A stretch of DNA of 64,000 nucleotides. Origin: Cognaticolwellia mytili (lineage in GTDB: Bacteria > Pseudomonadota > Gammaproteobacteria > Enterobacterales > Alteromonadaceae). The DNA lies in NCBI RefSeq assembly GCF_002104475.1, contig NZ_NBOF01000002.1:372001-436000 (forward strand), read 5' to 3'. A program made the translations under genes and the position numbers. Shown here one piece after another: positions 7,127 to 62,925 of the stretch (position 1 is the first letter of the stretch; every line of letters starts with the position of its first letter). The notes beneath the pieces are model-generated. The model was not told the DNA's origin. It did no database searches and saw nothing but the letters and a program-made list of their open reading frames with translations.

Positions 7127-7471
7127 ATGCAAAATCAAGCACCAATTAAACCTGTAGCTGCTAAGTATTCACTATTTAACCTGAACTCGGATCAGTGAGA
7201 ATGAAAAACACAATATTTCAAAGTATTATCAAAAGTCTATTACAGTGGTGATATTTATGCCTAGTTCAAAGCATTTATGTATGTCCAATAACGGTTATTG
7301 GCAACTTGAACAACGTAGAGGTAGGTTTTAATAGCGCTGCAATAACATTTCGCTTATCCCGAGCTCTGGTTATTTAATACAACCAGTAAAAACAAGCGGT
7401 TAAAACCCATACTCACAGTGGTTGTGAGGGCAAGTCATGCGCATCAGCCTGAACGCGCTCCTATTGAGTAA
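7127..7471 (+). pseudogene. Small ORF interrupted by a MITE-like insertion
   Basis: An ATG at 7127, preceded by a weak GCGGGA site, opens a reading frame (MQNQAPIKPVAAKYSLF...) that runs straight into the left inverted repeat of the element at 7179. If the element and one copy of the 6-bp duplication TATTTA are removed, the frame continues without a break from 7377 to a TAA at 7469-7471. The restored product would be 48 residues, basic in the middle (SKNKRLKP) and ending in QPERAPIE. I do not recognise the product. It may have been a real small gene, or a chance ORF that happened to receive the insertion. Confidence 0.35.
7179..7370. mobile_element. MITE-like element with imperfect inverted repeats and 6-bp target duplication
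   Basis: The 192-bp block begins ACCTGAACTCGGATCAG and ends with sequence whose reverse complement is ACCAGAGCTCGGGATAAG, so the ends are imperfect inverted repeats. TATTTA occurs directly outside both ends (7173-7178 and 7371-7376), as expected for a target-site duplication. No transposase is encoded, although the right half keeps a short frame, NLNNVEVGFNS followed by LSRA, that is echoed at the 3904 remnant. It is therefore probably a non-autonomous or internally deleted derivative of an insertion sequence whose family I cannot name. Confidence 0.6.
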
Positions 7472-7615
7472 ACAATCCACAAACAATATGCTCTATATGA
7501 AATAACCAGCCTTCTTTTTAAGGTAATTCCAACCTAGACAGTTAGAACTATCAATAAAATACGACGAGTAAACTATTTATGGCTCAATGAATCAGCGATC
7601 ATATAGAATTTTAGC

Positions 7616-7735
7616 TTATTGCCCTTTCATGGCACGCAGATAAAAGAATGTTTCATAGATCACTTGCTGATAGCGATTAAAGCTGGTGCAACTCGGCGTG
7701 ACTAAACCTTGCTCATCAGAAATAAAAAAAGGGTA
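7616..7735 (-). pseudogene. C-terminal coding fragment downstream of the isc operon
   Basis: On the minus strand a frame reads ISDEQGLVTPSCTSFNRY and then QQVIYETFFYLRAMKGQ before TAA at 7616-7618. The composition looks protein-like, but there is no start codon: the frame enters from inside the isc terminator hairpin after an in-frame TGA. It may be the tail of a gene lost by deletion, or chance. I do not recognise the family. Confidence 0.22.
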
Positions 7736-7758
7736 ATAACATCACTGTTATTACCCCT
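7724..7758 (-). terminator. Rho-independent terminator ending the isc operon
   Basis: GGGTAATAAC (7731-7740) pairs perfectly with GTTATTACCC (7747-7756) around a 6-base loop. Read on the minus strand, the stem is followed by a run of T (the A-run at 7724-7730). It lies about 25 bases beyond the fdx stop codon. Confidence 0.88.
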
Positions 7759-7783
7759 TCTAAGATTATGCTTTACTTAAAGT

Positions 7784-8122
7784 TTAGTGATTTTCACTAA
7801 CCATATTCACAGTATACTTTGGAATTTCAACAACTAAATCTTCATCACCAACAATTGCTTGGCAGCCAAGACGTGAGTCTGGTTCTAAGCCCCATGCTTT
7901 GTCTAACATGTCGTCTTCTAATTCATCACTTTCACCGATAGAATCGAAACCTTCACGGATGATCATATGACAGGTAGTACAAGCACAAACTTTTTCACAA
8001 GCATGCTCAACGCCAATATCATTCTTAAGTGCTACATCTAGTACACTTTCGCCTTTTTCAGCTTGTACTACTGCGCCTTCAGGGCAAAGATCTTCGTTAG
8101 GTAAAAATATAATTTGTGGCAT
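7784..8122 (-). CDS. fdx: Isc-type [2Fe-2S] ferredoxin
   Basis: This 112-residue adrenodoxin-like ferredoxin donates electrons during Fe-S cluster assembly on IscU. The cluster ligands fit Cys42, Cys48, Cys51 and Cys87 of the family; an extra Cys46 in the CEKVCACTTC loop is also usual for Isc ferredoxins. It is the last gene of the isc operon, three bases after hscA. The small acidic iscX gene that often follows fdx in enteric bacteria is absent: the terminator comes directly after this gene. Confidence 0.95.
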   Translation of the reverse strand: MPQIIFLPNEDLCPEGAVVQAEKGESVLDVALKNDIGVEHACEKVCACTTCHMIIREGFDSIGESDELEDDMLDKAWGLEPDSRLGCQAIVGDEDLVVEIPKYTVNMVSENH

Positions 8123-8125
8123 TGA

Positions 8126-9988
8126 CTAAACCTCGTCTACTGAATGGCCTGATAATGCTGTTCGAATAGAAGAATCCATTCTACGCTCAGCAAAAGCGGC
8201 GGTACTGTTATTTAATGTTTCCAATACCGCTTCAACATCAGCGGCATTTCCTATTTGGCTCGTTTTTGCTAGTGCCGAAATATTACTTTCTATTTCAGCT
8301 ATTTCAGCTTGGCTTAATAAGTGGCTATCAGCTGTTAATGCGGCTTGCACTGATTCAATCACTCTTGATGCTTCCACTTGTTGCTCTTTAAGCATACGTG
8401 CTTGCATGTCTAGCTCGGCATTTTCCATCGATGCTTTTAGCATGCTGGTAATTTCATGTTCTTCCAAACCAAAGCTTGGCTTAACAGTAATACTTGATTC
8501 AACACCGGTTGATTTTTCCATTGCTGACACTTCTAATAAACCGTCAGCGTCAACTTTAAAAGTTACACGAATATGCGCCGCACCTGCCGTCATTGCTGGA
8601 ATACCACGTAATTCAAAACGAGCTAACGAACGACAGTCATCAACAAGTTCACGTTCACCTTGCAGCACGTGTACAGCCATCGCTGTTTGACCATCTTTAA
8701 AAGTGGTAAATTCTTGTGCTTTGGCAACAGGGATTGTGGTGTTACGAGGAATAACCTTTTCAACTAATCCACCCATTGTTTCTAAGCCTAACGACAATGG
8801 AATAACATCAAGCAATAGCATATCGCTATCAGGCTTATTGCCCGCTAAAATGTCTGCTTGAATGGCAGCGCCAATGGCAACCACTTTATCTGGGTCAATT
8901 GAAGTTAATGGTTTCTTAGCAAAGAACTTCTCAACTTCACTGCGCACTAATGGCACACGAGTTGATCCGCCAACCATAACAACTTCAATTACATCAGCTA
9001 TTGCTAATTCAGCATCTTTAACAGCGCGTCGACAAGCTCTAAGGGTTTTCTTTACCAATGGCGCAATAAGTTGTTCAAAATCACTAAGCGTTAAACTGTT
9101 CGACCATTGCTTATCAGTTTCAAGCGTTAGTGAAACTTCAACACTATCATTATTTGAAAGTTGTTCTTTTGCATAACAAGCTTGTTGCGTTAATTGTCGC
9201 TCCATAGAAGCTGACAATGGGCGTGATAAACCGGATTTAGCTATTAAATGTTCAACAATAGCTTCATCAAAGTCATCGCCACCTAAGGCAGAGTCACCGC
9301 CAGTTGCTAGTACTTCAAATACACCTTTATTTAAGCGTAATATCGAAATATCAAACGTACCACCGCCTAAATCATAAACAGCAACTACACCTTCTTGGCC
9401 GGAGTCTAAACCATAAGCAACGGCTGCCGCTGTCGGTTCATTTAATAAACGTAAAACATTAACGCCTGCTAACTTAGCAGCATCTTTCGTACTGTGACGC
9501 TGAGCATCATCAAAATATGCAGGCACAGTAATAACCACACCTGTTAACTCGCCACCTAGGGAAAGTTCCGCACGCTGAACTAATGTTTTCAGAATTTGAG
9601 CTGAAACTTGTACCGGATTAACTTCACCCGTACGCGTTACAATTGCAGGATGATTTTCATCGCCGCAGAAGTTATATGGCAAAGAGGCATATTTGGTATT
9701 GATATCAGTTTTTGAACGGCCAATTAAACGCTTGGCAGATACAATAGTATTTTCAGGGTCGCTAACCGCTAGGGCTTTAGCTGTATCACCAACTAATATC
9801 TCATTACTTTGGTAACTAACAACGGAAGGAAGAATGTCTTTACCATTTTCATCAACAATGGTTTCGGCTAAACCGCTTTTAACGCTAGCAATAAGTGAGT
9901 TGGTCGTACCAAGGTCAATGCCAGCGGCTAATCGGTGGTCGTGAGGAACCGTACTTTGTCCAGGTTCAGCAATTTGTAATAGTGCCAT
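8126..9988 (-). CDS. hscA: Hsp70-class chaperone HscA for Fe-S cluster transfer
   Basis: This 620-residue Hsp70 specialises in releasing Fe-S clusters from IscU. The nucleotide-binding domain shows [12 protein letters not shown] near residue 23, the [14 protein letters not shown] phosphate loop near residue 200 and [13 protein letters not shown] near residue 335. The substrate-binding domain follows from about 390, with a lid rich in Ala and Glu. Length matches E. coli HscA (616). It recognises the LPPVK loop of IscU, present here at IscU 99-103, and is stimulated by HscB. It lies between hscB (138-base gap) and fdx (3-base gap) in the operon. Confidence 0.96.
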
Positions 9989-19460: not shown

Positions 19461-21254
19461 TTAGTTAGTACGTTGTTCTTTACGTGGACGGCTTGGACGT
19501 TCAGCAGCAGGTTGCGTATCAGATACTGTAATTGCTAACGCTTGACGACGAACTTGAACACGCTTTAATTGTGTAAAAGACTTCTCAGGCATACCTTTAG
19601 GTAACTGCACGAAACTATGCTTCTCATGCAAATTGATTGCACCAATGTAGCTACTGTCTAATGAAATTTCATTAGCGATTGCGCCTACGATGTCGCCAGG
19701 GCGAGCACCATGTTCTTTACCTACTTCAAGGCGGTAAGTCTGCCAATCAACATCTGAACGGCCAACTTTTGCTTTACGCGGAGCACGTTCAGCACGGTTT
19801 TCATTACGACCACCACGAGAATCGTTACGACCTCTGCCGTCACGGTCATTACGACCACCACGACTATCATTACGACCTCTTCCGTCACGGTCATTTCTTT
19901 CACGAGAATCACGACGAGGTTTCGGGTCTTCTTTCGGTTGTAATGGTTGCTTCAATTGCTTTTGATAAAGCAAAGCGGCAGCTAAGTCAGTCATTGAAAG
20001 CTCTGATTCTGCAGCCATTGTTTCAATGATTTCACGCATTGCTGTTAATTCTTTATCAGCAATAACTGTAGATAACTCAGTACGAGTACGTTCTATACGC
20101 GCTTTACCGATTTCTTCAATGTTTGGTAGGTCATACATTGCAACCGTACCAGAAGTTAAACGTTCATAATGACGTAAAGAGTACATTTCACGTGGACGAA
20201 CAAATGATATCGCTGTACCACTTCTACCAGCACGACCAGTACGGCCAATACGGTGAACATAAGCTTCGTTATCACCTGGTAAATCATAGTTAATAACTAA
20301 TGAAATACGTGGAATATCAAGACCACGGGCAACAACATCAGTTGCCACAAGAATAGATGACGTGCCTGACTTAAGTTGATCAACTGTACGTTCACGCTGT
20401 GCTTGGTTCATGTCACCGTTTAAAGCAACAGCAGCATAGCCTGCACGTTCTAATTTTTCAGCTACTTCAATAGTATCATTACGAGTTCGTACGAAAATTA
20501 TCATCGCATCGTAGTCAACTGTTTCAGCAATACGCTCTAATGCAGTCATTTTATTAATGCCGCTAACTTTCCATGCATATTGAGTGATATTGGCTTTAGC
20601 TTTTTTCACTGCCGCTATTTTAATATGCTCAGGTGATTTCAAAAAGCGATTCGCTACTTTGCGAATTTGCGCTGGCATTGTTGCAGAGAACAAAGCCATT
20701 TGAGTTTCTTTTGGTAAATGCTCAAGGATCCACTCAATGTCTTCTAAAAAGCCCATGTTTAACATTTCATCAGCTTCATCAAGCACACAAAATGATAAAT
20801 TAGCTAATTTAAGGCTCTTACGACGTAAGTGATCCATTAAACGACCAGGTGTGCCAACAACAACCTGTGCACCACGTTCTAGCTGTTGAAATTGTGGTTG
20901 GTAAGATTGACCACCGTATAAAGTAGCTACACGAAGTCCTTTCATATCTTTAGCAAAGGTTTCAATTGCTTCGGCAACTTGAATCGCTAATTCACGTGTT
21001 GGCGCTAACACCATCAATTGTGGTTTACGTAAAGTAACATCAATTTTTGCTAGTGCAGGCAAACCAAATGCTGCAGTTTTACCAGTACCGGTTTGTGCTT
21101 CACCAAGTACATCTTTACCTGCTAATAAAGGAGGAATTGTTTGCGCTTGAATTGCAGTAGATGATTCAAAACCTAGTGCTTTTACAGCAGATACTAAGTT
21201 TTCAGGCAAACCAAGGGCGTCAAAGCCTACAGAGGCATTGTTAAGATCAGTCAT
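19461..21254 (-). CDS. deaD: DEAD-box RNA helicase, DeaD/CsdA type
   Basis: This 597-residue ATP-dependent RNA helicase acts in ribosome assembly and cold adaptation. The N-terminal half has the Q motif, AQTGTGKTAAFG, PTRELA, TPGRL, DEAD and SAT motifs; the second RecA lobe has ARGLDIP and HRIGRTGRAG. A DbpA-like RNA-binding domain follows at about residue 490-570. Between them lies an Arg/Gly/Asp/Asn-rich linker with two almost identical copies of RNDRDGRGRNDSRGG. A strong promoter about 215 bases upstream gives a long 5' leader, as for E. coli csdA; cold-induced control is therefore likely but not proven. Confidence 0.94.
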   Translation of the reverse strand: MTDLNNASVGFDALGLPENLVSAVKALGFESSTAIQAQTIPPLLAGKDVLGEAQTGTGKTAAFGLPALAKIDVTLRKPQLMVLAPTRELAIQVAEAIETFAKDMKGLRVATLYGGQSYQPQFQQLERGAQVVVGTPGRLMDHLRRKSLKLANLSFCVLDEADEMLNMGFLEDIEWILEHLPKETQMALFSATMPAQIRKVANRFLKSPEHIKIAAVKKAKANITQYAWKVSGINKMTALERIAETVDYDAMIIFVRTRNDTIEVAEKLERAGYAAVALNGDMNQAQRERTVDQLKSGTSSILVATDVVARGLDIPRISLVINYDLPGDNEAYVHRIGRTGRAGRSGTAISFVRPREMYSLRHYERLTSGTVAMYDLPNIEEIGKARIERTRTELSTVIADKELTAMREIIETMAAESELSMTDLAAALLYQKQLKQPLQPKEDPKPRRDSRERNDRDGRGRNDSRGGRNDRDGRGRNDSRGGRNENRAERAPRKAKVGRSDVDWQTYRLEVGKEHGARPGDIVGAIANEISLDSSYIGAINLHEKHSFVQLPKGMPEKSFTQLKRVQVRRQALAITVSDTQPAAERPSRPRKEQRTN

Positions 21255-48033: not shown

Positions 48034-51000
48034 GTGCATTTATCTTTCTTCAAGCAAAGACTATTTTCGAATTTTTCTATTTTCCGTGCCTCTTTTATTT
48101 GTTTGATGGCGTTTTCTGTTGCTATACAAACATACGCATTTGCGAATAACGTCAATCAAAATCCATTAAAATTTGAACGTATTTCAATCGCGGAAGGATT
48201 ATCTCAAAGTTATGTTTACGATATAATTCAAGATTCTAATGGTTTTATGTGGATTGCGACGCAAGATGGTTTAAACCGCTACGACGGTAAAAGTTTTGTT
48301 TATTATCGACACGATAGTACAAACAAGAATTCAATTGCCGACAACTTTATCCGTAAACTTTTTATCGATGATAAGAGTGTTTTATGGGTTGGTACTAATG
48401 AAGGCTTAAGTCGCTATAACCCATCGTTAGACAATTTCGATAACTTCTTGCACCAAGAAAACGATAACAATTCCCTTAAAGACAATGAGATTTGGGATAT
48501 ATATCAAGATAAACAAAGCAATATATATATATCTACCAAAGAAGGCCTCCAAAAATTTAATCATGAAAATAATGATTTCGTTCATATTCGTTTTCGAGAT
48601 TTTGAAAATGTACTAAAAGAAATTAAAACTATTTTTCAAGATGAAAAAGGGAATTATTGGCTAGGAACCTATGATAAGGGCATATTTTTAACCAATAGCA
48701 CTATGTCTTCAGTAGTATCTCTTAATGATAAAAATAAATGGGACATCAACCTCAACGCGACTGCACTTTATGACTTAAAATATATTGATAATCAATATTG
48801 GCTAGGAACAAATAATGGTCTTTTAATTATTTCACAAAGTTATGAAATAATTAAACACTATACAAAAGAAAGTAGTGACGTTAGCCTAAAGTTGTTATCA
48901 AATATGGTTCGCTCAATTGAACAACTTAATGAGTCATCTGTTTGGCTAGGCACATTAAGTGGCTTAAATAGTATTAATATTTTGACCGGTAAAGTTAACT
49001 CTCACCAAGGTGTTCAACACAAAAATTCTCTTTCGAGCAACTTCCTCTATAAAGTATATAAAACTAAGAAAGGTGATATGTGGCTTGGCACAACAGGAGG
49101 AGGAATCAATACATTTAATACTTTACAAAAAAAGCTAGTGCATGGACTATTCAAATATGACGGTGCTAACCAAGCGGTATACGCATTTGCCGAAACTTCT
49201 GATAACTCTGTTTGGTTCACAACAGACAATGGACAATTGAATAAGCTAACATCTGATGGAGGAGCACTTCAAGTGAGTATTAATAACAATACTCCAATAT
49301 CTCAAATAATGGTTGATGAAAAAGACAACTTATGGCTAAAAACAGAACCAAGCACTCCTTCAGAACATAGCAACCTTTTCTATTATGACACTCAAAGTAA
49401 AATATTGATAAAAAATGAAGAATGGGCTGAAAACTCTAACCAATTGAATTATAGCAATTCAATTTTACTTAAAGATAAAATTTGGTTTATTGAAAAAGAA
49501 GGAGAACTAAAAAGCTATAACATCAAAACCAAGAAGTTTAGAAGTTTTAGTCAAGGTAGTACAAAAAAATTCACAATGCTAACTAGCGACATTAATAATG
49601 ACATATGGCTTTCAACAACTGATAACCATATTCTGACTTTTAATACTTTAAGTCTTACTTTCTCAGGAAAGCAATACAACACCATTAATGATGCTAATAA
49701 TGGAAATTATACTAACATCTCAGTATCCGAAAATTGGATTTGGTTGGGAACCAGAGGGCAAGGTGTTACACTCATTAATAAGCACGCTGAAAAAACTTCA
49801 CGATTTAATGAAGAAACAGGCCTTTCTAATAACTTTATTTCAGATATAAAAATAGATACTAACGAGACGGCTTGGGTATCAACAAATAATGGTATAAACG
49901 CAATATCCCCTAATACCAAGCTTGTAAAATCATTTAACATCGACTTCCAGCTTTCTGACAACGAATTTATTAGCGACAGTGGAATAATCACTAAAAATCA
50001 AGCCATATACTTTGGAGGCATAAATGGTTTCCATACATTATCTCCCAATGAACTAATCATGACAGGTCAAAAGCTGCCTAAGCCGTATATCACCAATATT
50101 TTAATTGCAAATAAAGAGGTCCCTACTGTCAGCAAACAAGAAATAAGCACTGACTTTAGTATTAAAAAAGCACCAAATCATCTAGATTTATTAAAGTTAG
50201 GGCATAAGCAGTCTCAATTTAGTATTGAGTTTATTTCCCCAAATGTGAAAATGCCAAGCCACTTAAAATACCGCTATAGACTACTCGGCTTAGAAGATGA
50301 TTGGATCGATGCTGGTAAAAATAATTTACGAGCAACCTACACCAACTTAAGCCCAGGTGATTATAGTTTTGAAGTACAAGCCTACGATTTACAGAATAAA
50401 CAAGAAAGTGAAGTTAAAGCTTTAAGTATTAAAATTATGCCGCCCTGGTGGTTATCACTCAGTGCAATATTACTTTATAGTTTAACTTCTATCTTAATTG
50501 TTGCTTACTTTCTCCAGCAAATGCGTCATAAGCGGTTATATCATTTACAAATTAAGTTGAGTGAAGAGCGCTTAAAGCTATCTCTGTGGGGTAGCGGCGA
50601 TGAAATGTGGGACTGGAATATTAAGAAAGGAAAAATATACCGCTCTAATATCTGGGGCATTTTAGAGTTTCCACAAGATGGGAAGCGCAATGTAGGTGCC
50701 GATCAAACCAATATTCATCTACAAGATATCCCAAGAGTAAGGGAGGCACTAAATCAGCACTTTGAAGATAGCAGCCAACATTTTGAAGCTACCTATCGTG
50801 TAAAAGACAAAGACGACAAATGGATTTGGATACTTGACCGCGGTAAAATAGTCGAACGTGATGAAAAGAATAAGCCCTCACGTATGACAGGAACACTAAA
50901 AGACATCAGTCAAATAAAACGCACCGATGAACGCTTAAAGTTATTTGCAAAATGTATTGAAAATATTTCAGACGCTATTGTTATTTATGATCGCCAATTT

Positions 51001-52614
51001 ACTGTGGTTGACGTTAACAAAGCTTATCAGCGCATTACCGGTAAGACAAAGCTAAAAATGCGCGGTTCTCCATTAAAATTCGAGCAGTACCCCGAAAGCT
51101 TTAACCAGAATGTTAAGAAGCATTTGATCACAAAGGGTAATTGGCATGGTGAAATTGAAAGTATTCGCGACAATGGCGAGCTTTACTTCACGGATTTAAA
51201 TATTGATATTATCAAGGATGAAACAGGTAATATATCACATTTTGTTGGTGTTTTTTCAGATATAACAAAGCGTAAGCAAACCGAAGCTGAATTAAGAAAA
51301 CTTGCTAATTCGGATACCTTAACTGGGTTGCCTAACCGTTCTTATTTTCAAGCTAATCAACAAAGATTAGTTAAAAATAAAATATCGCATGCCTTATTAG
51401 TTTTCGATTTAGATAATTTTAAGAAAGTTAATGATTCATTAGGACATGAAGTCGGTGACGTTTTACTTTGTAAGGTCGCTGAGCGTATTCGAGGCTTAGG
51501 TAGAAACCAAGATAGTGTCTATCGACTGGGTGGAGATGAATTTAGTTTAATTGTTGAAAACACAAATGATATCCACACTGTTACAACGATTGCCAAGCAA
51601 GTATTAGACTCAATTGCTTTGCCGCTAAAACTAAAAAGCCAGGAAATCGTTCTTTATAGTAGTATCGGTATAGTACTTTACCCTGAGGACGGCATTAGCC
51701 CGCAAGAATTACTGAAAAATGCCGATACAGCAATGTATCACGCAAAAAATTCTGGCGGCAATAAATACCAATTTTTCAGTGATTCAATGAATAAAACCGC
51801 GGTTAAGCGCTTACAAGTCGAAAGTCTCATTCGTCACGGTCTAAAAGATGACTTATTTTCAGTTTTTTATCAGCCAAAAATTGAAATCGCTACTGGGAAA
51901 ATAGCAGGTATGGAAGCACTTGTTCGTTTCGAGACTCCTAGTAAAGGTATCGTTAGCCCTGTGGTATTTATTCCAGTATCTGAAGAAACAGGACAAATTA
52001 TAGATATCGGTGAAGTGGTACTTCGAAAAGCGTGTTTTGCTACCAAAAAGTGGGTTGATGCTGGTCTTTTTGAAGGGCGTATTGCAGTGAACTTATCTGC
52101 TGTACAATTTACTCAGCCAAACCTAGTGTCTATGATTGCGAATACCTTAAAAGAAAGCGAGCTACCAGCCAAGTATTTAGAGCTAGAGATTACCGAAGGT
52201 ACGGTAATGGATTCACCACAAAAAGCCATTGATACTATGCTGCAAATACGTGCGATGGGTATTCATCTATCACTAGATGATTTTGGCACTGGCTACTCCT
52301 CATTGGCTTATTTAAAAAAATTCCCACTAAACACATTAAAAATAGACAAGGCCTTTGTTGATGATATAGAAACGTCAGAGCAAGGCCGAAATATGGTAGC
52401 TACCATTGTCACTATTGCACATAACTTAGGCATGCAAGTTGTCGCTGAAGGTGTAGAAACCAACCAACAGTTAAGTTTTCTATCAGGTCTTCGCTGTGAG
52501 CAGTTACAAGGTTATTTATATAGTAAACCATTACCTGAAAATGATTTTCAAAAATATTTACTTTCGTTCCAAATAACGAGTAAATCGACCTCATTTGATC
52601 AAAATACAATTTAG
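48034..52614 (+). CDS. Periplasmic-propeller sensor with PAS, GGDEF and EAL domains
   Basis: This 1526-residue membrane sensor begins with GTG and a signal/anchor segment (IFRASFICLMAFSVAIQTYA). Two-component-regulator propeller repeats follow to about 730 (W-GT-GL signatures, periplasmic), then a Y_Y_Y domain (about 745-800) and a transmembrane helix at 803-830. Two PAS/PAC modules span about 840-1085; GGDEF is intact at 1166-1170 and EAL begins at Glu1294 (MEALVRF). An RxxD inhibitory site (RNQD) lies five residues before GGDEF, as required for product feedback. Downstream EAL motifs DDFGTGYSS and DKAFVDD are present, so both c-di-GMP synthesis and hydrolysis are possible. The ligand of the propeller is unknown. 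The nonapeptide-repeat gene starts 142 bases downstream on the same strand. Confidence 0.94.
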   Translation: MHLSFFKQRLFSNFSIFRASFICLMAFSVAIQTYAFANNVNQNPLKFERISIAEGLSQSYVYDIIQDSNGFMWIATQDGLNRYDGKSFVYYRHDSTNKNSIADNFIRKLFIDDKSVLWVGTNEGLSRYNPSLDNFDNFLHQENDNNSLKDNEIWDIYQDKQSNIYISTKEGLQKFNHENNDFVHIRFRDFENVLKEIKTIFQDEKGNYWLGTYDKGIFLTNSTMSSVVSLNDKNKWDINLNATALYDLKYIDNQYWLGTNNGLLIISQSYEIIKHYTKESSDVSLKLLSNMVRSIEQLNESSVWLGTLSGLNSINILTGKVNSHQGVQHKNSLSSNFLYKVYKTKKGDMWLGTTGGGINTFNTLQKKLVHGLFKYDGANQAVYAFAETSDNSVWFTTDNGQLNKLTSDGGALQVSINNNTPISQIMVDEKDNLWLKTEPSTPSEHSNLFYYDTQSKILIKNEEWAENSNQLNYSNSILLKDKIWFIEKEGELKSYNIKTKKFRSFSQGSTKKFTMLTSDINNDIWLSTTDNHILTFNTLSLTFSGKQYNTINDANNGNYTNISVSENWIWLGTRGQGVTLINKHAEKTSRFNEETGLSNNFISDIKIDTNETAWVSTNNGINAISPNTKLVKSFNIDFQLSDNEFISDSGIITKNQAIYFGGINGFHTLSPNELIMTGQKLPKPYITNILIANKEVPTVSKQEISTDFSIKKAPNHLDLLKLGHKQSQFSIEFISPNVKMPSHLKYRYRLLGLEDDWIDAGKNNLRATYTNLSPGDYSFEVQAYDLQNKQESEVKALSIKIMPPWWLSLSAILLYSLTSILIVAYFLQQMRHKRLYHLQIKLSEERLKLSLWGSGDEMWDWNIKKGKIYRSNIWGILEFPQDGKRNVGADQTNIHLQDIPRVREALNQHFEDSSQHFEATYRVKDKDDKWIWILDRGKIVERDEKNKPSRMTGTLKDISQIKRTDERLKLFAKCIENISDAIVIYDRQFTVVDVNKAYQRITGKTKLKMRGSPLKFEQYPESFNQNVKKHLITKGNWHGEIESIRDNGELYFTDLNIDIIKDETGNISHFVGVFSDITKRKQTEAELRKLANSDTLTGLPNRSYFQANQQRLVKNKISHALLVFDLDNFKKVNDSLGHEVGDVLLCKVAERIRGLGRNQDSVYRLGGDEFSLIVENTNDIHTVTTIAKQVLDSIALPLKLKSQEIVLYSSIGIVLYPEDGISPQELLKNADTAMYHAKNSGGNKYQFFSDSMNKTAVKRLQVESLIRHGLKDDLFSVFYQPKIEIATGKIAGMEALVRFETPSKGIVSPVVFIPVSEETGQIIDIGEVVLRKACFATKKWVDAGLFEGRIAVNLSAVQFTQPNLVSMIANTLKESELPAKYLELEITEGTVMDSPQKAIDTMLQIRAMGIHLSLDDFGTGYSSLAYLKKFPLNTLKIDKAFVDDIETSEQGRNMVATIVTIAHNLGMQVVAEGVETNQQLSFLSGLRCEQLQGYLYSKPLPENDFQKYLLSFQITSKSTSFDQNTI

Positions 52615-52756
52615 CTATTAGGTGTCAATTTTATGGCATTGCAAGTTTATTCTCTAAACATAAGCGTAGGGCCTTGCTGGTAAAGACCTTGCACTTATGG
52701 CACAGTTTTCGCTTAAACCTTATTGATTTTAATAATAATTTTAATAAGGAAAAAAC

Positions 52757-53038
52757 ATGCTTAGTTCATTAATTCTATCTTTAGCAATGTCTGGTACCCC
52801 TGCCGTTGTAAACACAAATGATTTCAACATCGAAGAAGCCGGTACTCGTCGCGGTCAAGTGCGTATTGGCACCCGTCGCGGTCAAGTTCGCATTAATAGT
52901 GAAAAATTAGACGCTACGGAAACAGGCACTCGTCGTGGTCAAGTTCGCATTAATAACGAGAAATTAGATGTTACTGAAACTGGTACTCGTCGTGGCCAAG
53001 TCCGTATTGGTACTCGCCGTGGTCAAGTTCGCATCTAG
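52757..53038 (+). CDS. Multicopy nonapeptide ORF (five GTRRGQVRI repeats)
   Basis: This 93-residue ORF has a good AAGGA site 6 bases before its ATG. The N-terminus (MLSSLILSLAMSGTPAVV) is hydrophobic and could be a secretion signal; a short acidic segment (DFNIEEA) follows. Then come five exact copies of GTRRGQVRI at 52841, 52868, 52925, 52982 and 53009. Copies 1-2 and 4-5 are contiguous. Copies 2-3 and 3-4 are separated by 10-residue acidic linkers, N[SN]EKLD[AV]TET. At DNA level the copies differ only at third codon positions. The product is strongly cationic in the repeats and acidic in the leader and linkers, as in precursors cut into several identical peptides. I recognise no family, and no modifying enzyme or dedicated exporter is nearby. 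Confidence 0.8.
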   Translation: MLSSLILSLAMSGTPAVVNTNDFNIEEAGTRRGQVRIGTRRGQVRINSEKLDATETGTRRGQVRINNEKLDVTETGTRRGQVRIGTRRGQVRI

Positions 53039-53046
53039 GAGCTAAT

Positions 53047-53151
53047 ATGATCAATCTAATTAAATCTTTATTTGTTAATAGTACAAAAGAAAATGCTATT
53101 GCTGCAGGTATAGAAATTAAAGAGATGCCTGCAAGTACATGGTGGAATTAG
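53047..53151 (+). CDS. 34-residue ORF coupled to the nonapeptide gene
   Basis: ATG 53047 is preceded by AGGAG with a 5-base spacer; the AGGAG overlaps the stop codon of the repeat gene. The product starts MINLIKSLFVNSTKEN, has a mildly amphipathic middle and ends in MPASTWWN. Spacing and the strong ribosome site imply co-expression with the repeat ORF. I recognise no family; it could be a partner peptide, an immunity-type peptide or a regulatory leader. An inverted repeat TTTAAAGCA/TGCTTTAAA at about 53155-53180 follows, without a U-tract. Confidence 0.55.
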   Translation: MINLIKSLFVNSTKENAIAAGIEIKEMPASTWWN

Positions 53152-53268
53152 ACTATTTAAAGCATTTAAACTGCTTTAAACGAGAAAAGGATACAATGCT
53201 ACAAGGATGTTAGCGTTTTAACATTATCAAATTATTTAGCCCGATAGTTTAACAAAAAAAGAGAATAT

Positions 53269-53472
53269 CTAAGCCGAGAAAAGCAAACAGTCAAAACCAA
53301 AACGCTGATAGGTCTTTAAGCGTTTCTTCATACAAAACATTGGCCAGATCAACGGGCCGAATACTAATCCAGCCGTTGCCCATCGTTTAGCTCCTAAGCC
53401 ATTGCTTATAGCCTGACAATAAAAAAACGATGAAAAAATGATAGCTAATACTGATATAAATAAAATAAACAC
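53269..53472 (-). CDS. Small membrane protein of unknown function
   Basis: This 67-residue protein starts with GTG. It has a hydrophobic N-terminal helix (FILFISVLAIIFSSFFYCQA), a conserved-looking GLGAKRWATAGLVFGPLIWP segment that may form a second helix, and a basic Cys-containing tail (KKRLKTYQRFGFDC). The GAKRWxxAGLxxGP pattern recurs in small uncharacterised membrane proteins of marine gammaproteobacteria, from memory. It converges on the peptide genes. Function unknown. Confidence 0.55.
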   Translation of the reverse strand: MFILFISVLAIIFSSFFYCQAISNGLGAKRWATAGLVFGPLIWPMFCMKKRLKTYQRFGFDCLLFSA

Positions 53473-53624
53473 GCCTAACCTACTTCGAAATTATATAGAG
53501 AAATTAAAAACGTTATAAACACGCGCATCTTAGCAATATTAGAGTAATCATTCAAAAAACATTATTTTACCATCGTCACTCTTTGTCATTCATGGCACCG
53601 TGACATACTGTTCGTCCTAAACAT

Positions 53625-53651
53625 AAAAAAGAGGCAATAAATTGCCCCTTT
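53625..53651 (-). terminator. Rho-independent terminator of the fadIJ operon
   Basis: On the minus strand GGGGCAA pairs with TTGCCTC (one G-U pair) around TTTA and runs into six T. It lies about 70 bases past the fadJ stop codon. Confidence 0.75.
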
Positions 53652-53720
53652 CGTTACTAGTTTCAGCCTACTTTACGGAAAAATCATTCCATCAATAATT
53701 TAGGCTCAACGAACTAATTA

Positions 53721-55886
53721 CTACGAATAATAACTTTCGCCTTGATCTGCCATTTTCACTAATGCATCACAAGGTGTGAATCGTTCACCAAACTCAGCTT
53801 GCCATTTGGTTAATTTACTCACCAGTGTTTTGGCTCCAACTTTATCCATGTACTGGAACGGACCGCCAAGGAACGGTGGAAAGCCAATACCAAAAATAGC
53901 CCCAATATCGCCATCACGAGCATTGCGAATAATTTTTTCATCCAAACAACGAGCTGCTTCATTAAGCATCATGTAAACACAACGCTCAACTTGTGCTTCA
54001 GAAACAGACTTATTACTCGCTTGTAATCCAAGTGAGCTATAAACGCCTTCATCAACCAGTTTTTTCTTACTCTTAGTATTATATTGATAGAAACCTTTCT
54101 TCACTTTTTTACCTAAACGACCATCTTCGATCAATTTAGAAAAAGCTGCCGGTGGAGCAAAACGCTCTCCTAATTCAGCTTGTAAAATTGGCCCAATTTT
54201 AGAACCTACATCAATACCAACTTCATCTAACAACTGCATCGGTCCGACAGGGAAACCAAATTTTACCATCGCTTTATCTAAAGCTTCAATTGAACAACCT
54301 TCAAGTAACAGCATTCCTGCTTCGTTCATGTAAGGCGCTAAAATACGATTAACATAAAAGCCGGCTTTGTCTTTAACAACAATAGGGGTTTTCCCTTGCT
54401 TTTTAGCAAACGCAACCGTTGTTGAAATAGTTTGATCAGAGGTTTTATCGTGAGCGATAATTTCTGCTAACGGCATTTTATCCACAGGTGAAAAGTAATG
54501 TAGTCCGATAACATTTTCTGGACGCTGTGCTTTTTCAGCTATTTGCCCAATCGGTAGGCTTGAAGTATTACTGGCGAAAATGGTACTCTCTTTACAATGG
54601 CTTTCAATATCTGCCACCATATTTTGTTTTAAAGTTAAGTCTTCAAATACCGCTTCAACGGCAATATCCACATTAGCAAAACCTGTAAACTCGGTTGTAC
54701 CCGTGATATTTGCCAGTTGATTCTGCATTTCACTATGACGCATAAAGCGACGCTTAACTTTTTTATTCAATAAGTCATAGCCATATTTAAGTGCATGGCT
54801 AATACCCTGATGTGAAATATCTTTAATGCGTACCGGTAATTTTGCTTTGGTTGCCGTTACAAAAGCAATACCGCCGCCCATTAAGCCACCACCAAGTACC
54901 GCAACACTTTCGATTTTAGCAGGTTGAATGCCCTCAACACCCTGCTCTTTTTTCATATCGGTTGTCGCGAAGAATATTTGTCTAAGCTGCGCAGAAACAT
55001 CTGTCATCACTAACTGACCAAAATGTTCTGCTTCTACTTGGTAACCTTTCGAAGGAGCTTGTTCCGCACCAGTACGTATACAGTCAATAATTTTTAATGG
55101 CGCAGGGTAATTACCTTTGGTTTTACCTAAGACCATTTTTGTCGCTTGACTAAACAAAACACTGCGCCCTAAACGATTGCCTTCAAGCAACTTATCCATC
55201 AATGACAATTTACGTGCTTTAGGCTTTACTTTACCTGAAAGCGCTAGCTTTTCTGCTGTGGCAATTAAAATACTGTTTGGCACTACTACATTGACTAAAC
55301 CGGCTTTTAAGGCTTGTTTTGCACGTAATTGCTTACCTGTCAGCATCATATCTAATGATTTTTGAATACCAACAAGTTTCGGTAAACGCTGTGTACCACC
55401 GCCACCTGGTAATAACCCTAATTGTACTTCAGGCAAACCTAATGCAGTTTTGCCACTATCACTACAAACACGGCCATGACAGGCCATAGCAAGCTCTAAA
55501 CCGCCACCTAAACAAGCACCATGTATAGCTGCAACAACAGGAATAGATAAATTTTCTAATTGATCGAAGATCACTTGCCCTTGACGTGATAATGCCGTGG
55601 CTTCTTCTGCAGACGTACACTTAGCCAACATATGAACATCAGCGCCCGCAACAAACGAGTCTGCTTTACCACTAATTAACACTAGCCCTTTTATTGTTTT
55701 GTCTTCACGAATCTCTTTCAATGTTGCCGCTATTTCTTCCCCAAATTCAGCTTTTAGGGTATTCATGGTGTCGCCTTTAACGTCCATGATTAAATGTGCG
55801 ATGCCATTTTCCTGGCGTGCCAAACTAAAGGTATTGGTTTCTTCTGGCATAGTTAAGTCATTTTCTTGCATTGTAACATCCGTCAT
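53721..55886 (-). CDS. fadJ: Fatty acid oxidation complex alpha subunit FadJ
   Basis: This 721-residue enzyme carries enoyl-CoA hydratase and L-3-hydroxyacyl-CoA dehydrogenase activities of beta-oxidation. The start is placed at ATG 55884-55886 ([11 protein letters not shown]), which overlaps the fadI stop in TAATG and has GGAGAC upstream; a longer frame would run back into fadI. The hydratase domain shows GACLGGGLELAMACHGRV with the catalytic glutamates nearby; the dehydrogenase domain starts with GGGLMGGGIAF and has ENVIGLHYFSPVDKMPL. Its partner thiolase is encoded immediately upstream. Confidence 0.94.
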   Translation of the reverse strand: MTDVTMQENDLTMPEETNTFSLARQENGIAHLIMDVKGDTMNTLKAEFGEEIAATLKEIREDKTIKGLVLISGKADSFVAGADVHMLAKCTSAEEATALSRQGQVIFDQLENLSIPVVAAIHGACLGGGLELAMACHGRVCSDSGKTALGLPEVQLGLLPGGGGTQRLPKLVGIQKSLDMMLTGKQLRAKQALKAGLVNVVVPNSILIATAEKLALSGKVKPKARKLSLMDKLLEGNRLGRSVLFSQATKMVLGKTKGNYPAPLKIIDCIRTGAEQAPSKGYQVEAEHFGQLVMTDVSAQLRQIFFATTDMKKEQGVEGIQPAKIESVAVLGGGLMGGGIAFVTATKAKLPVRIKDISHQGISHALKYGYDLLNKKVKRRFMRHSEMQNQLANITGTTEFTGFANVDIAVEAVFEDLTLKQNMVADIESHCKESTIFASNTSSLPIGQIAEKAQRPENVIGLHYFSPVDKMPLAEIIAHDKTSDQTISTTVAFAKKQGKTPIVVKDKAGFYVNRILAPYMNEAGMLLLEGCSIEALDKAMVKFGFPVGPMQLLDEVGIDVGSKIGPILQAELGERFAPPAAFSKLIEDGRLGKKVKKGFYQYNTKSKKKLVDEGVYSSLGLQASNKSVSEAQVERCVYMMLNEAARCLDEKIIRNARDGDIGAIFGIGFPPFLGGPFQYMDKVGAKTLVSKLTKWQAEFGERFTPCDALVKMADQGESYYS

Positions 55887-61014: not shown

Positions 61015-62925
61015 ATGGAAGAATTTCACTTTATTCGTCCGTTATGGTTACTCGTCATTATTATTTTAGTGCTGATGATCCTTTTGCTTAAAAGAAACCA
61101 TGTTAAACAATCTGGTTGGCAAAACTTAATACCACCGCATTTAGCAAAAGTATTGGTTGAAGGTAATACCCGGACAAAATCAAAATCACTAGCGCTACCT
61201 TTTTTTATTGGTTTAATTGCAATTATTGCGATGGCTGGGCCTAGTTGGAAAAAATTGCCTCAGCCTGTTTATCAAGTAGCTCAGGGCTCGGTACTGATTA
61301 TGGATATGTCGTACTCAATGTATGCCACTGACGTAACACCGAATCGTTTAACACGAGCACGTTATAAAGCCATTGATTTACTTGATGGTATTAACGAAGG
61401 TGAAGTTGGCCTTATTGCCTATGCTGGCGATGCATTTAGCATTAGCCCATTAACTGATGACGTAAATAATATTAAATTGTTATTGCCTTCACTTAGCCCT
61501 GACTTAATGCCAGAGCCGGGTAGTAACCCATTAGCCGCATTAACATTGGCAAACGAAATGCTAATCAACGCCGGACATAACGACGGTGATATTTACTGGT
61601 TTACTGATGGTATTGATAATATTGATATTCAAGACTTAACCCAGTGGTCACGTGAACATCCCTATCGAATCAATATTTTAGGCGTAGGCACGGCAGCGGG
61701 TGCACCTATTAAACTCAGTAATGGTGAATTAATGAAGGACGGTAACGGTGCAATTATTGTCCCAAAGCTAACCGAAAATTTATTGCGAGGTGTTGCTCAG
61801 CGCGGCAGTGGCAACTATGTCACCTTATCGCATGATAATAGTGATATTGAAAAGCTAACTTTTAAACCACTTGTTGCTGACTCTAATGAAACCACAGAAA
61901 GTGAAAATACTGGCGATCAATGGCAAGAATTTGGCCCCTATTTATTACTCTTAATTCTGCCCTTAGTATTAAGTTATTTTAGACGCGGAGCTTTGTTAGT
62001 CGCTCTGCCCTTTGCTTTGCTCCTTATCCCTAATGAAAAGGCTCATGCTGACATTTGGCAAGACCTTTGGAAAACGAAAGATCAACAAGGACAAGAACAC
62101 TTTAAGCAAGAACAGTTTCAACAAGCTGCCGAGCAATTTAATAACCCGCTCTGGCAAGGCAGCTCGCATTATAAAGCTGGAGATTACGAGCAAGCATTAG
62201 CTGCTTATCAGCATGTTGATAGTGCAGAATCTTTGTACAATCAAGGGAACGCTCTGGCAAAGTTACAACGAATGGATGAAGCGCTCGAAGCATATAGTAA
62301 AGCCTTAGAAAAAGATCCAAACCTTGCTGACGCTAAAGCTAACAAAGAAGTTATTGAGCAGCTTAAGAAACAGCAAGAACAAGAACAAGAACAAGAACAA
62401 GAACAACAAAAACAAGATCAACAATCTGGTGACGATGGCCAAGAGAATGGTGATCAACAAGGTGATGATCAGAAGAATCAAGACCAGCAAGGCGAAAACC
62501 AAGACGGCCAGAATCAAGATAGTGAAAATCAAGATAGCGATCAGCAACAGCAAAATACTGATCAAAATTCTGGCTCACAAGAAAATAAAGATCAGCAGGC
62601 ACAATCAAACGATGAACAAAGCACTAATGAACAGCAAGAGCAAAATAATCAACAAAATTCAGAACAAGAACAAAACGACAAACAGCAAGAATCAGCTGAA
62701 CAACAAGCAAAAACGGCACAAGAAGGCGATGAGTCTGAAAACGAACAAAGTGCTCAAGCACAATTAGCGGCAGAACAACTCGCTAAAGAAACTGAGCAAA
62801 AACATCAGCAACTACTTAATAAAGTTACCGACGACCCATACATGCTGCTACGCAATAAAATGCAGTTAGAGTATCAAAAACGTCGCCAAGACCGCCGAAA
62901 TATAGGAGTTAAGAAAAAGTGGTAA
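61015..62925 (+). CDS. batB: BatB-type VWA protein fused to TPR (BatC-like) and Gln-rich tail
   Basis: This 636-residue protein has N-terminal membrane helices, a VWA domain with MIDAS Asp97-Ser99-Ser101 (MDMSYSMYATD) and two hydrophobic segments near 303-340. Tetratricopeptide repeats follow at about 365-445 (ALAAYQHVDSAESLYNQGNA, then YSKALEKDPNLADAKANKE). A low-complexity tail of Gln, Glu, Asp and Asn spans about 448-595, and the protein ends in a basic segment (QKRRQDRRNIGVKKKW). In some bacteria BatB and the TPR protein BatC are separate; here they are one polypeptide. It is 1 base after batA. Confidence 0.9.
   Translation: MEEFHFIRPLWLLVIIILVLMILLLKRNHVKQSGWQNLIPPHLAKVLVEGNTRTKSKSLALPFFIGLIAIIAMAGPSWKKLPQPVYQVAQGSVLIMDMSYSMYATDVTPNRLTRARYKAIDLLDGINEGEVGLIAYAGDAFSISPLTDDVNNIKLLLPSLSPDLMPEPGSNPLAALTLANEMLINAGHNDGDIYWFTDGIDNIDIQDLTQWSREHPYRINILGVGTAAGAPIKLSNGELMKDGNGAIIVPKLTENLLRGVAQRGSGNYVTLSHDNSDIEKLTFKPLVADSNETTESENTGDQWQEFGPYLLLLILPLVLSYFRRGALLVALPFALLLIPNEKAHADIWQDLWKTKDQQGQEHFKQEQFQQAAEQFNNPLWQGSSHYKAGDYEQALAAYQHVDSAESLYNQGNALAKLQRMDEALEAYSKALEKDPNLADAKANKEVIEQLKKQQEQEQEQEQEQQKQDQQSGDDGQENGDQQGDDQKNQDQQGENQDGQNQDSENQDSDQQQQNTDQNSGSQENKDQQAQSNDEQSTNEQQEQNNQQNSEQEQNDKQQESAEQQAKTAQEGDESENEQSAQAQLAAEQLAKETEQKHQQLLNKVTDDPYMLLRNKMQLEYQKRRQDRRNIGVKKKW

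Follow-up and report, generated by a model that had tools for sequence, protein, structure and literature searches.

We report that a small gene in the window, i.e., the 64,000-nucleotide stretch of DNA analysed here (source genome G000, 4.5 Mb, contig C12), encodes five copies of the nonapeptide GTRRGQVRI, and that in its relatives the copies within a gene are held identical by selection while the unit changes between species. The gene, ORF1, is preceded by a predicted sigma-54-type promoter and lies close to the gene for a membrane sensor with a putative c-di-GMP output, here called C3, with which it nearly always co-occurs in the C3-positive genomes of the family. We give roughly even odds (about 0.5) to the reading that ORF1 encodes a precursor from which a short, cationic and species-specific signalling peptide is released to act through C3. 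The preliminary description of this DNA had singled out the repeats and mentioned neither the promoter, nor a second small ORF (ORF2; 53047-53151), nor C3 just upstream.

The repeat gene and its relatives

ORF1, the candidate repeat peptide precursor (52757..53038, + strand; 93 aa), was characterised by protein search, profile search and alignment, and its ATG is preceded by AAGGA. The protein begins with a conserved hydrophobic N-terminus, MLSSLILSLAMSGTPA (52757..52804, +; alignment), which is a putative export leader. The five GTRRGQVRI units follow on the same strand at 52841..52867 (unit 1, residues 29-37), 52868..52894 (unit 2, residues 38-46), 52925..52951 (unit 3, residues 57-65), 52982..53008 (unit 4, residues 76-84) and 53009..53035 (unit 5, residues 85-93), the last forming the protein end, and the two linkers, NSEKLDATET and NNEKLDVTET, are two residues apart (pN 0.08). 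As the preliminary description had noted, the copies differ by third-position silent changes only; there are five distinct DNA sequences (pS 0.51, pN 0). The AF2 model of ORF1, built from a shallow alignment (17 rows), has a mean pLDDT of 43 and neither a confident nor a repeat fold. Lys or Arg occurs within residues 2-6 in 25 of 91 orthologues, i.e., a basic n-region is absent from most, and the N-terminus would therefore be a weak Sec signal at best.

Two other repeats are present in the window. A 45-bp repeat at 19801-19895 (-) lies where a DEAD-box-like RNA helicase ORF (19461-21254) encodes its RG/NDR-rich tail, and in a vWA/TPR-like protein (61015-62925) a Q/E-rich stretch is encoded by a CAAGAA repeat at 62369-62424 (+).

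Orthologues, for which the preliminary description had proposed a search, do exist. Protein search with ORF1 gave matches in 23 of 98 genomes (its own included), among them 17/17 of the window's genus, and the 17-row ORF1 profile matched 68 of 395 genomes of the family, spread over 15 of 52 genera. The orthologues start with the hydrophobic MLSSLILSLxMSxTP or a variant of it, followed by units that are alike within a gene and unlike those of other species, e.g. GTRKDQVRI, GTRPGTVRI, GTKRGVVRI, ATRRGMIRI, SAKRGSRRL and GKSHGKVRI; locus L032 carries GTKRNQVRI in six copies. Copy number ranges from 1 to 14. The protein ends exactly in [RK][ILVMF] in 65 of 91 peptides and carries this motif within two residues of the end in 73, and the last ten residues are net positive in 83. 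Within the window's genus there are 16 different units in 17 genomes (15 in 16, plus GTRRDQVRI of locus L014); positions 1, 2, 8 and 9 are invariant among the 15 genus units, and positions 5 and 6 vary most.

Some relatives have a single unit. In four genomes of g13, ORF1 carries one C-terminal unit (..AGRGNRGVRI, ..TGRRAVRI, ..TGRRSVRI and ..ARGNRGSVKI) and is followed by ORF2, and other genera encode a 44-57-residue precursor, MLKAYAVALxLTTxxPV.., with one short terminal stretch that is usually basic, e.g. WKPGSVRI. Quite different ends occur in some single-unit relatives (..GFGLFSWF, ..NGRNW), and two f15 relatives have an acidic C-terminal sequence (..LIDDQVEM, ..IEDQVGL). Since some genera have a single C-terminal unit, the repeats look, from the sequences, like amplification of a C-terminal product, and the idea of a peptide precursor in the preliminary description gains strength from the single-unit orthologues, which are most naturally read as precursors with a C-terminal product. 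The sequence of the peptide varies so much that half of the peptide genes escape profile searches; gene position and promoter reveal them.

Variant genes were also seen. In g82 genomes (e.g. L146, L147, L148 and L150) the units end in IRIQP or IRIKP, and L088 has an imperfect first unit. At L128 (G063, f6) the same spot, approximately 7387-8190 of the reverse-oriented stretch, encodes a protein of 225 aa in which a 13-residue repeat, TAALPAIKVLDTQ, recurs 15 times almost unchanged; these repeats are unlike the basic units, and an ORF2-like peptide ending in AWWK comes next.

Constancy within genes and change between species

Unit copies were gathered without requiring an exact match, which gave 378 copies in 63 multi-copy genes (L014, L085, L088, L090, L123, L133, L153 and L169 are left out of this set). 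The copy equals the commonest unit of its own gene in 365 cases, and for the pooled units pS was 0.312 and pN 0.0131 (pN/pS 0.04). Where a gene had two or more linkers of equal length (35 genes), the unit pN was 0.0176 compared with 0.068 for the linkers; linker pN was higher than unit pN in 27 genes, lower in five and equal in three (sign test p = 1.1e-4), and linker pS was higher than unit pS in ten genes and lower in 24. Given that silent sites are divergent and that linkers change more than units, we conclude that selection keeps the units identical, as the preliminary description had claimed. The constancy that it described holds gene by gene and does not extend across species, with 58 distinct units in the 63 multi-copy genes; likewise, the non-synonymous drift of repeats that it had named as counter-evidence was found between species and was not found within genes.

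The view that these are old repeats rather than recent duplications stands in part: silent divergence is large, but the DNA of some genes (L005, L006 and L077) has recently been homogenised, so that both turnover and selection act. For the pairs L005/L006 and L077/L082 the copies are closer to each other than to their counterparts. Copy-specific silent marks are in register across species for L094/L144 (p 0.0014). Among pairs in which the unit has changed, such marks are in register for L011/L012 (p 0.028) and L134/L142 (p 0.05) and are not for L071/L072 (p 0.46) and the window/L004 (p 0.42), all four p values being uncorrected. Between species the unit changes together in every copy of a gene, or almost every one, and these mixed results are only suggestive of a replacement in register across all copies at once. 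Function aside, the unit is a clear example of a short protein motif that is identical across a gene's copies yet changes between species.

A few genes depart from uniformity. The mixed gene L020/L067 (G049) has GTKRSEIRL as its first and last units and GTKRGEIRL as the three between them, which may be a replacement under way. Within the window's genus the last unit has decayed in L017 and L079 (G005, G013) and in L014 (G008), reading DTSSNEISI, DTSRNEISI and DDTNHNEVSI; these decayed units come after few or identical good units (L014 has five identical units and a decayed sixth) and may be on the way to being lost or to forming a new C-terminus.

Predicted promoter, second peptide and association with a propeller sensor

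A sigma-54-type (-24/-12) promoter, TGGCACAGTTTTCGCT (52698..52713, +), is predicted ahead of ORF1 by pattern match and conservation of position. The pattern TGGCAYRNNNNTHGCW has a single match in the window (0.32 expected) and 12 matches in the genome compared with 13 for the reversed control; being no commoner than the control, the lone match means little, and the weight lies with position and conservation. One of the 12 genome matches sits 80 nt before a gene that we take to be glnA, a classic sigma-54 target. A site scoring at least 10 of 12 (GG and GC at sigma-54 spacing) is present within 200 nt upstream in 91/91 peptide genes, 80 of which score at least 11, and six peptide genes initially left out also have it (97/97 overall), the site starting 53-96 nt ahead of the ATG. 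Among random 200-nt stretches 2.0% reach 10 and 0.7% reach 11, and for the initial 62-gene set the site was found in 62/62 genes compared with a shuffle mean of 0.27. The sites follow the sigma-54 consensus (TGGCAY..TTGC-like, GG/GC spacing), with the third T of the -12 element mostly C or A. A scan of 52500-53300 for sigma-70 promoters and terminators gave nothing above shuffles, and Rfam matched nothing in 52000-54000.

The second small peptide gene, ORF2 (53047..53151, +; 34 aa, MINLIKSLFVNSTKENAIAAGIEIKEMPASTWWN), begins 8 nt after ORF1 and was identified by profile search and alignments. Its profile matched 84 of 395 family genomes (19 of 52 genera) at E <= 1e-3. The 31 aligned members are 32-38 aa long and 24 of them end in WW, with or without one further residue, and at least nine g82 genomes have ORF2-like peptides in a tandem pair. 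An order-wide search at E <= 0.05 gave 11 matches in 295 genomes, seven in the window's family (E <= 4e-11), the other four being weak and outside it. The profile misses distant members, given that position revealed ORF2-like peptides in f6 and f15; by inspection, no ORF2 was seen at most loci with the MLKAY-type precursor. A comparison of ORF2 with PHROGs gave nothing below 0.13.

C3, the putative receptor (48034..52614, +; Pfam, AF2, Foldseek and co-occurrence), consists of a propeller sensor, Y_Y_Y, a transmembrane helix, two PAS domains, GGDEF and EAL. Pfam matches are Reg_prop (1.2e-27), Y_Y_Y (4.8e-17), EAL (2.7e-64) and GGDEF (1.9e-42). The propeller repeats and Y_Y_Y precede the membrane helix, as in Reg_prop/Y_Y_Y periplasmic sensors, and GGDEF and EALVRF motifs are present in the translation, as in c-di-GMP enzymes, of which C3 is a candidate member. 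The AF2 model of the sensor (68 sequences; pLDDT 90.9 over 797 residues) is a double propeller, for which the best PDB match in Foldseek was BT4663 (4a2l; E about 1e-51, TM 0.78/0.83), with BT3049 also matched; the profile match to 4a2l was 1.9e-147. By its structure title BT4663 senses a glycan (heparin/heparan sulphate), not a peptide. Mean identity among 12 genomes of the window's genus was 0.50 for C3 residues 391-735, 0.73 for residues 46-390 and 0.96 for EAL. Fast evolution of the C3 sensor was dropped as support, since two paralogous sensors of the same genomes are equally divergent (identity 0.63, 0.63 and 0.62 in a crude comparison, where the membrane motif was not found and domains were cut by default at residue 780); only the output part of C3 is more conserved. 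Unit and propeller divergence did not correlate significantly in the window's genus (12 genomes, partial Mantel p 0.15) or in g82 (10 genomes, p 0.11). Over 30 genomes the partial r was 0.31 (p 5e-4), and phylogeny may explain this correlation since the cytoplasmic PAS part correlates as well (0.22, p 0.002).

In the neighbourhood sample of 41 loci (the window and 40 others, approximately 16 kb each), clusters for an M16 peptidase, C3, fadJ and fadI were present at 39 loci each and a small membrane protein at 33; the other conserved neighbours are presumably MoxR-like, DUF58-like and vWA-like proteins (all these names are in part our own assignments). No modifying enzyme, exporter or polysaccharide-use gene was seen in the conserved neighbourhood of the 41 loci. 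The M16 peptidase and the small membrane protein were rejected as partners, being unspecific, i.e., present also at loci without C3 or the peptide.

The C3 sensor search was positive in 103 of 395 family genomes (E <= 1e-80). As for a peptide-receptor pair, the two genes co-occur: the peptide gene is present in 101 of the 103, and the remaining two (G102 and G159) could not be assessed. For 81 of the 101 this rests on an ORF1 or ORF2 profile match in the genome and for 20 on inspection, adjacency to C3 being seen directly at the retrieved loci only. A prediction made beforehand for 16 C3 loci missed by the profiles held throughout, with a downstream peptide ORF and a ribosome-binding-like sequence in 16/16, and further peptide ORFs were found by inspection in G024, G029, G038 and G052. 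C3 is full-length and intact at the examined peptide loci except L135 (contig end), L076 and L083. The genomes of the latter two (G322 and G332) have a full-length C3 orthologue elsewhere (59% identity), i.e., peptide and C3 are unlinked and both kept, and G053 of the same genus has neither a peptide match nor a full-length C3 match. Four profile-positive genomes had no C3 match, viz. G110, G285 (a 16-residue partial match), G293 (at base 160 of the contig) and G421.

The spot 3' of fadJ was surveyed in 40 genomes without profile matches. Propeller C3 and peptide were both present in 13 (L113, L115, L117, L119, L121, L123, L127, L128, L153, L154, L157, L160 and L169), C3 only in three, neither or a truncated C3 in 20, and four were uninformative (L124, L158, L159 and L165). 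The association has a Fisher p of 2.4e-7 (3.8e-7 without L112, which is perhaps cut by the end of the stretch), a value that ignores phylogeny. The three C3-only loci (L122, L156 and L168) have more distant C3 genes and lack the promoter-like site as well as the peptide. In G030 the fadJ spot is without C3, and both C3 and peptide are present elsewhere in the genome. The peptide gene is absent from ten paralogous propeller-sensor loci (two paralogues, six genomes) and from the G161 paralogue L199. At L065 (G001), fadJ consists of two ORFs (339 and 361 aa), either broken or the result of a sequencing error.

A putative signalling peptide, its alternatives and known systems

A ligand for C3 is the simplest account of the identical copies, the species-specific change, the one-unit relatives and the attachment to one periplasmic sensor. 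Transcription would start from the putative sigma-54 promoter, and the hydrophobic N-terminus would insert the precursor into the inner membrane or carry it across; the acidic spacer and linkers would be removed and the unit copies, here GTRRGQVRI, set free. The double propeller and Y_Y_Y of C3 would recognise the peptide in the periplasm, and recognition would alter the GGDEF/EAL output and hence c-di-GMP. Several identical copies would mean a higher dose; all of them would have to fit one receptor site and hence agree, and that site and the peptide would change together between species. ORF2 may be an accessory peptide. In other bacteria FleQ, FlrA and VpsR are c-di-GMP-responsive sigma-54 activators, and a feedback loop from c-di-GMP to the sigma-54 promoter is, by analogy, conceivable.

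The main rival reverses the roles: C3 would sense another ligand, e.g. a glycan, and the cationic repeat peptide would be its output, an effector in the matrix or envelope that binds DNA or lipopolysaccharide. The closeness of the sensor fold to the heparin/heparan-sulphate sensor BT4663, the net positive ends of 83 of 91 peptides and a promoter separate from C3 all agree with this, but a plain polycation requires neither identical copies nor sequences specific to nearly every species, some relatives have one short unit and the two f15 relatives end acidic; we regard it as unlikely, if worth keeping in mind. ORF1, perhaps together with ORF2 and its WW end, might instead be a multi-core RiPP precursor with enzymes encoded elsewhere. 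Its leader, spacer and repeated hypervariable cores have that layout, but given that neither an adjacent modifying enzyme nor an exporter was seen in the conserved neighbourhood, and that no Pfam or NCBIfam precursor family was matched, this appears improbable.

Two further readings dispense with a released peptide product. A multivalent or self-assembling chain (a binding scaffold or cross-beta polymer), in which copies must be identical for stacking and the exact sequence is free, would account for units that are identical within a species and drift from one species to the next, but it sits poorly with single-unit orthologues and with an AF2 model without a repeat fold (mean pLDDT 43, shallow alignment), and in-register stacking of K/R-rich strands would presumably be unfavourable; we give it little credence. 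Ordinary tandem-repeat turnover by slippage or unequal crossing-over, with no selection on the peptide, draws on the recent homogenisation in L005, L006 and L077 and on copy numbers from 1 to 14, but the pooled pS of 0.31 against a pN of 0.013, the greater change in linkers of the same genes and the in-register silent marks of L094/L144 (p 0.0014) make it very improbable, and simple repeat turnover alone is rejected on account of the divergent silent sites and the more changed linkers.

Returning to the signalling peptide acting through C3, we propose more tentatively that it represents a new class of Gram-negative cell-cell signalling, in which a sigma-54-controlled exported peptide, with one ancestral C-terminal unit that would have been amplified in the Colwellia clade to as many as 14 identical copies, would act through a glycan-sensor-like propeller receptor on c-di-GMP, with nearly every species having its own peptide. 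If so, a large group of marine bacteria, for which we know of no peptide language, would have one that is tied to the biofilm and motility messenger c-di-GMP, and dozens of natural species-specific ligand-receptor pairs with built-in controls would be at hand.

ORF1, ORF2 and eleven relatives had no match above cut-off in Pfam/NCBIfam (the last groups of relatives were compared partly with one library), and plasmid records had no match for one single-unit peptide. The NCBIfam family BRANT_His_rich matched one relative at E 0.16, which was judged to be chance, and the name brought up only unrelated papers. No description of the locus was found in titles and abstracts of open-licence PubMed Central papers. 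The copies are conserved at the amino-acid level (365/378, pN/pS 0.04), as in secreted multicopy peptide precursors, for which export and release of the units are further hallmarks, both putative here. The fission-yeast gene map2 (P-factor) encodes one secreted precursor with 4-8 tandem pheromone copies and is diverse among strains (PMC6342294). Yeast precursors are similar in having many short-peptide copies, with no homology claimed, and differ in using the eukaryotic secretory pathway and a GPCR receptor; the copies within one yeast precursor often differ, in contrast to the nearly constant identity found here.

Compared with the Bacteroides hybrid two-component sensors BT4663 and BT3049, the periplasmic part of C3 has the same fold (two propellers and Y_Y_Y). 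As output, however, C3 carries PAS-GGDEF-EAL where these sensors have a histidine kinase and regulator; polysaccharide-use genes were not seen beside it, and its putative ligand is a peptide. Some RiPPs have a leader and then repeated short cores in one precursor; ORF1 shares this arrangement, but no maturation enzyme was seen at the locus and the unit is, by sequence, unmodified. To our knowledge no bacterial system has a multicopy peptide precursor together with both a propeller c-di-GMP receptor and a sigma-54-type promoter, and ORF1 looks like an unrecognised bacterial signalling peptide. Gram-positive autoinducing peptides are short, exported and encoded beside a membrane receptor, with species-specific variants. 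Here too a short, species-specific and presumably exported peptide is encoded beside a putative membrane receptor; in contrast to the Gram-positive peptides, no dedicated exporter was seen at the locus, and the system has a Gram-negative host, a multicopy precursor, a sigma-54-type promoter and a putative c-di-GMP output.
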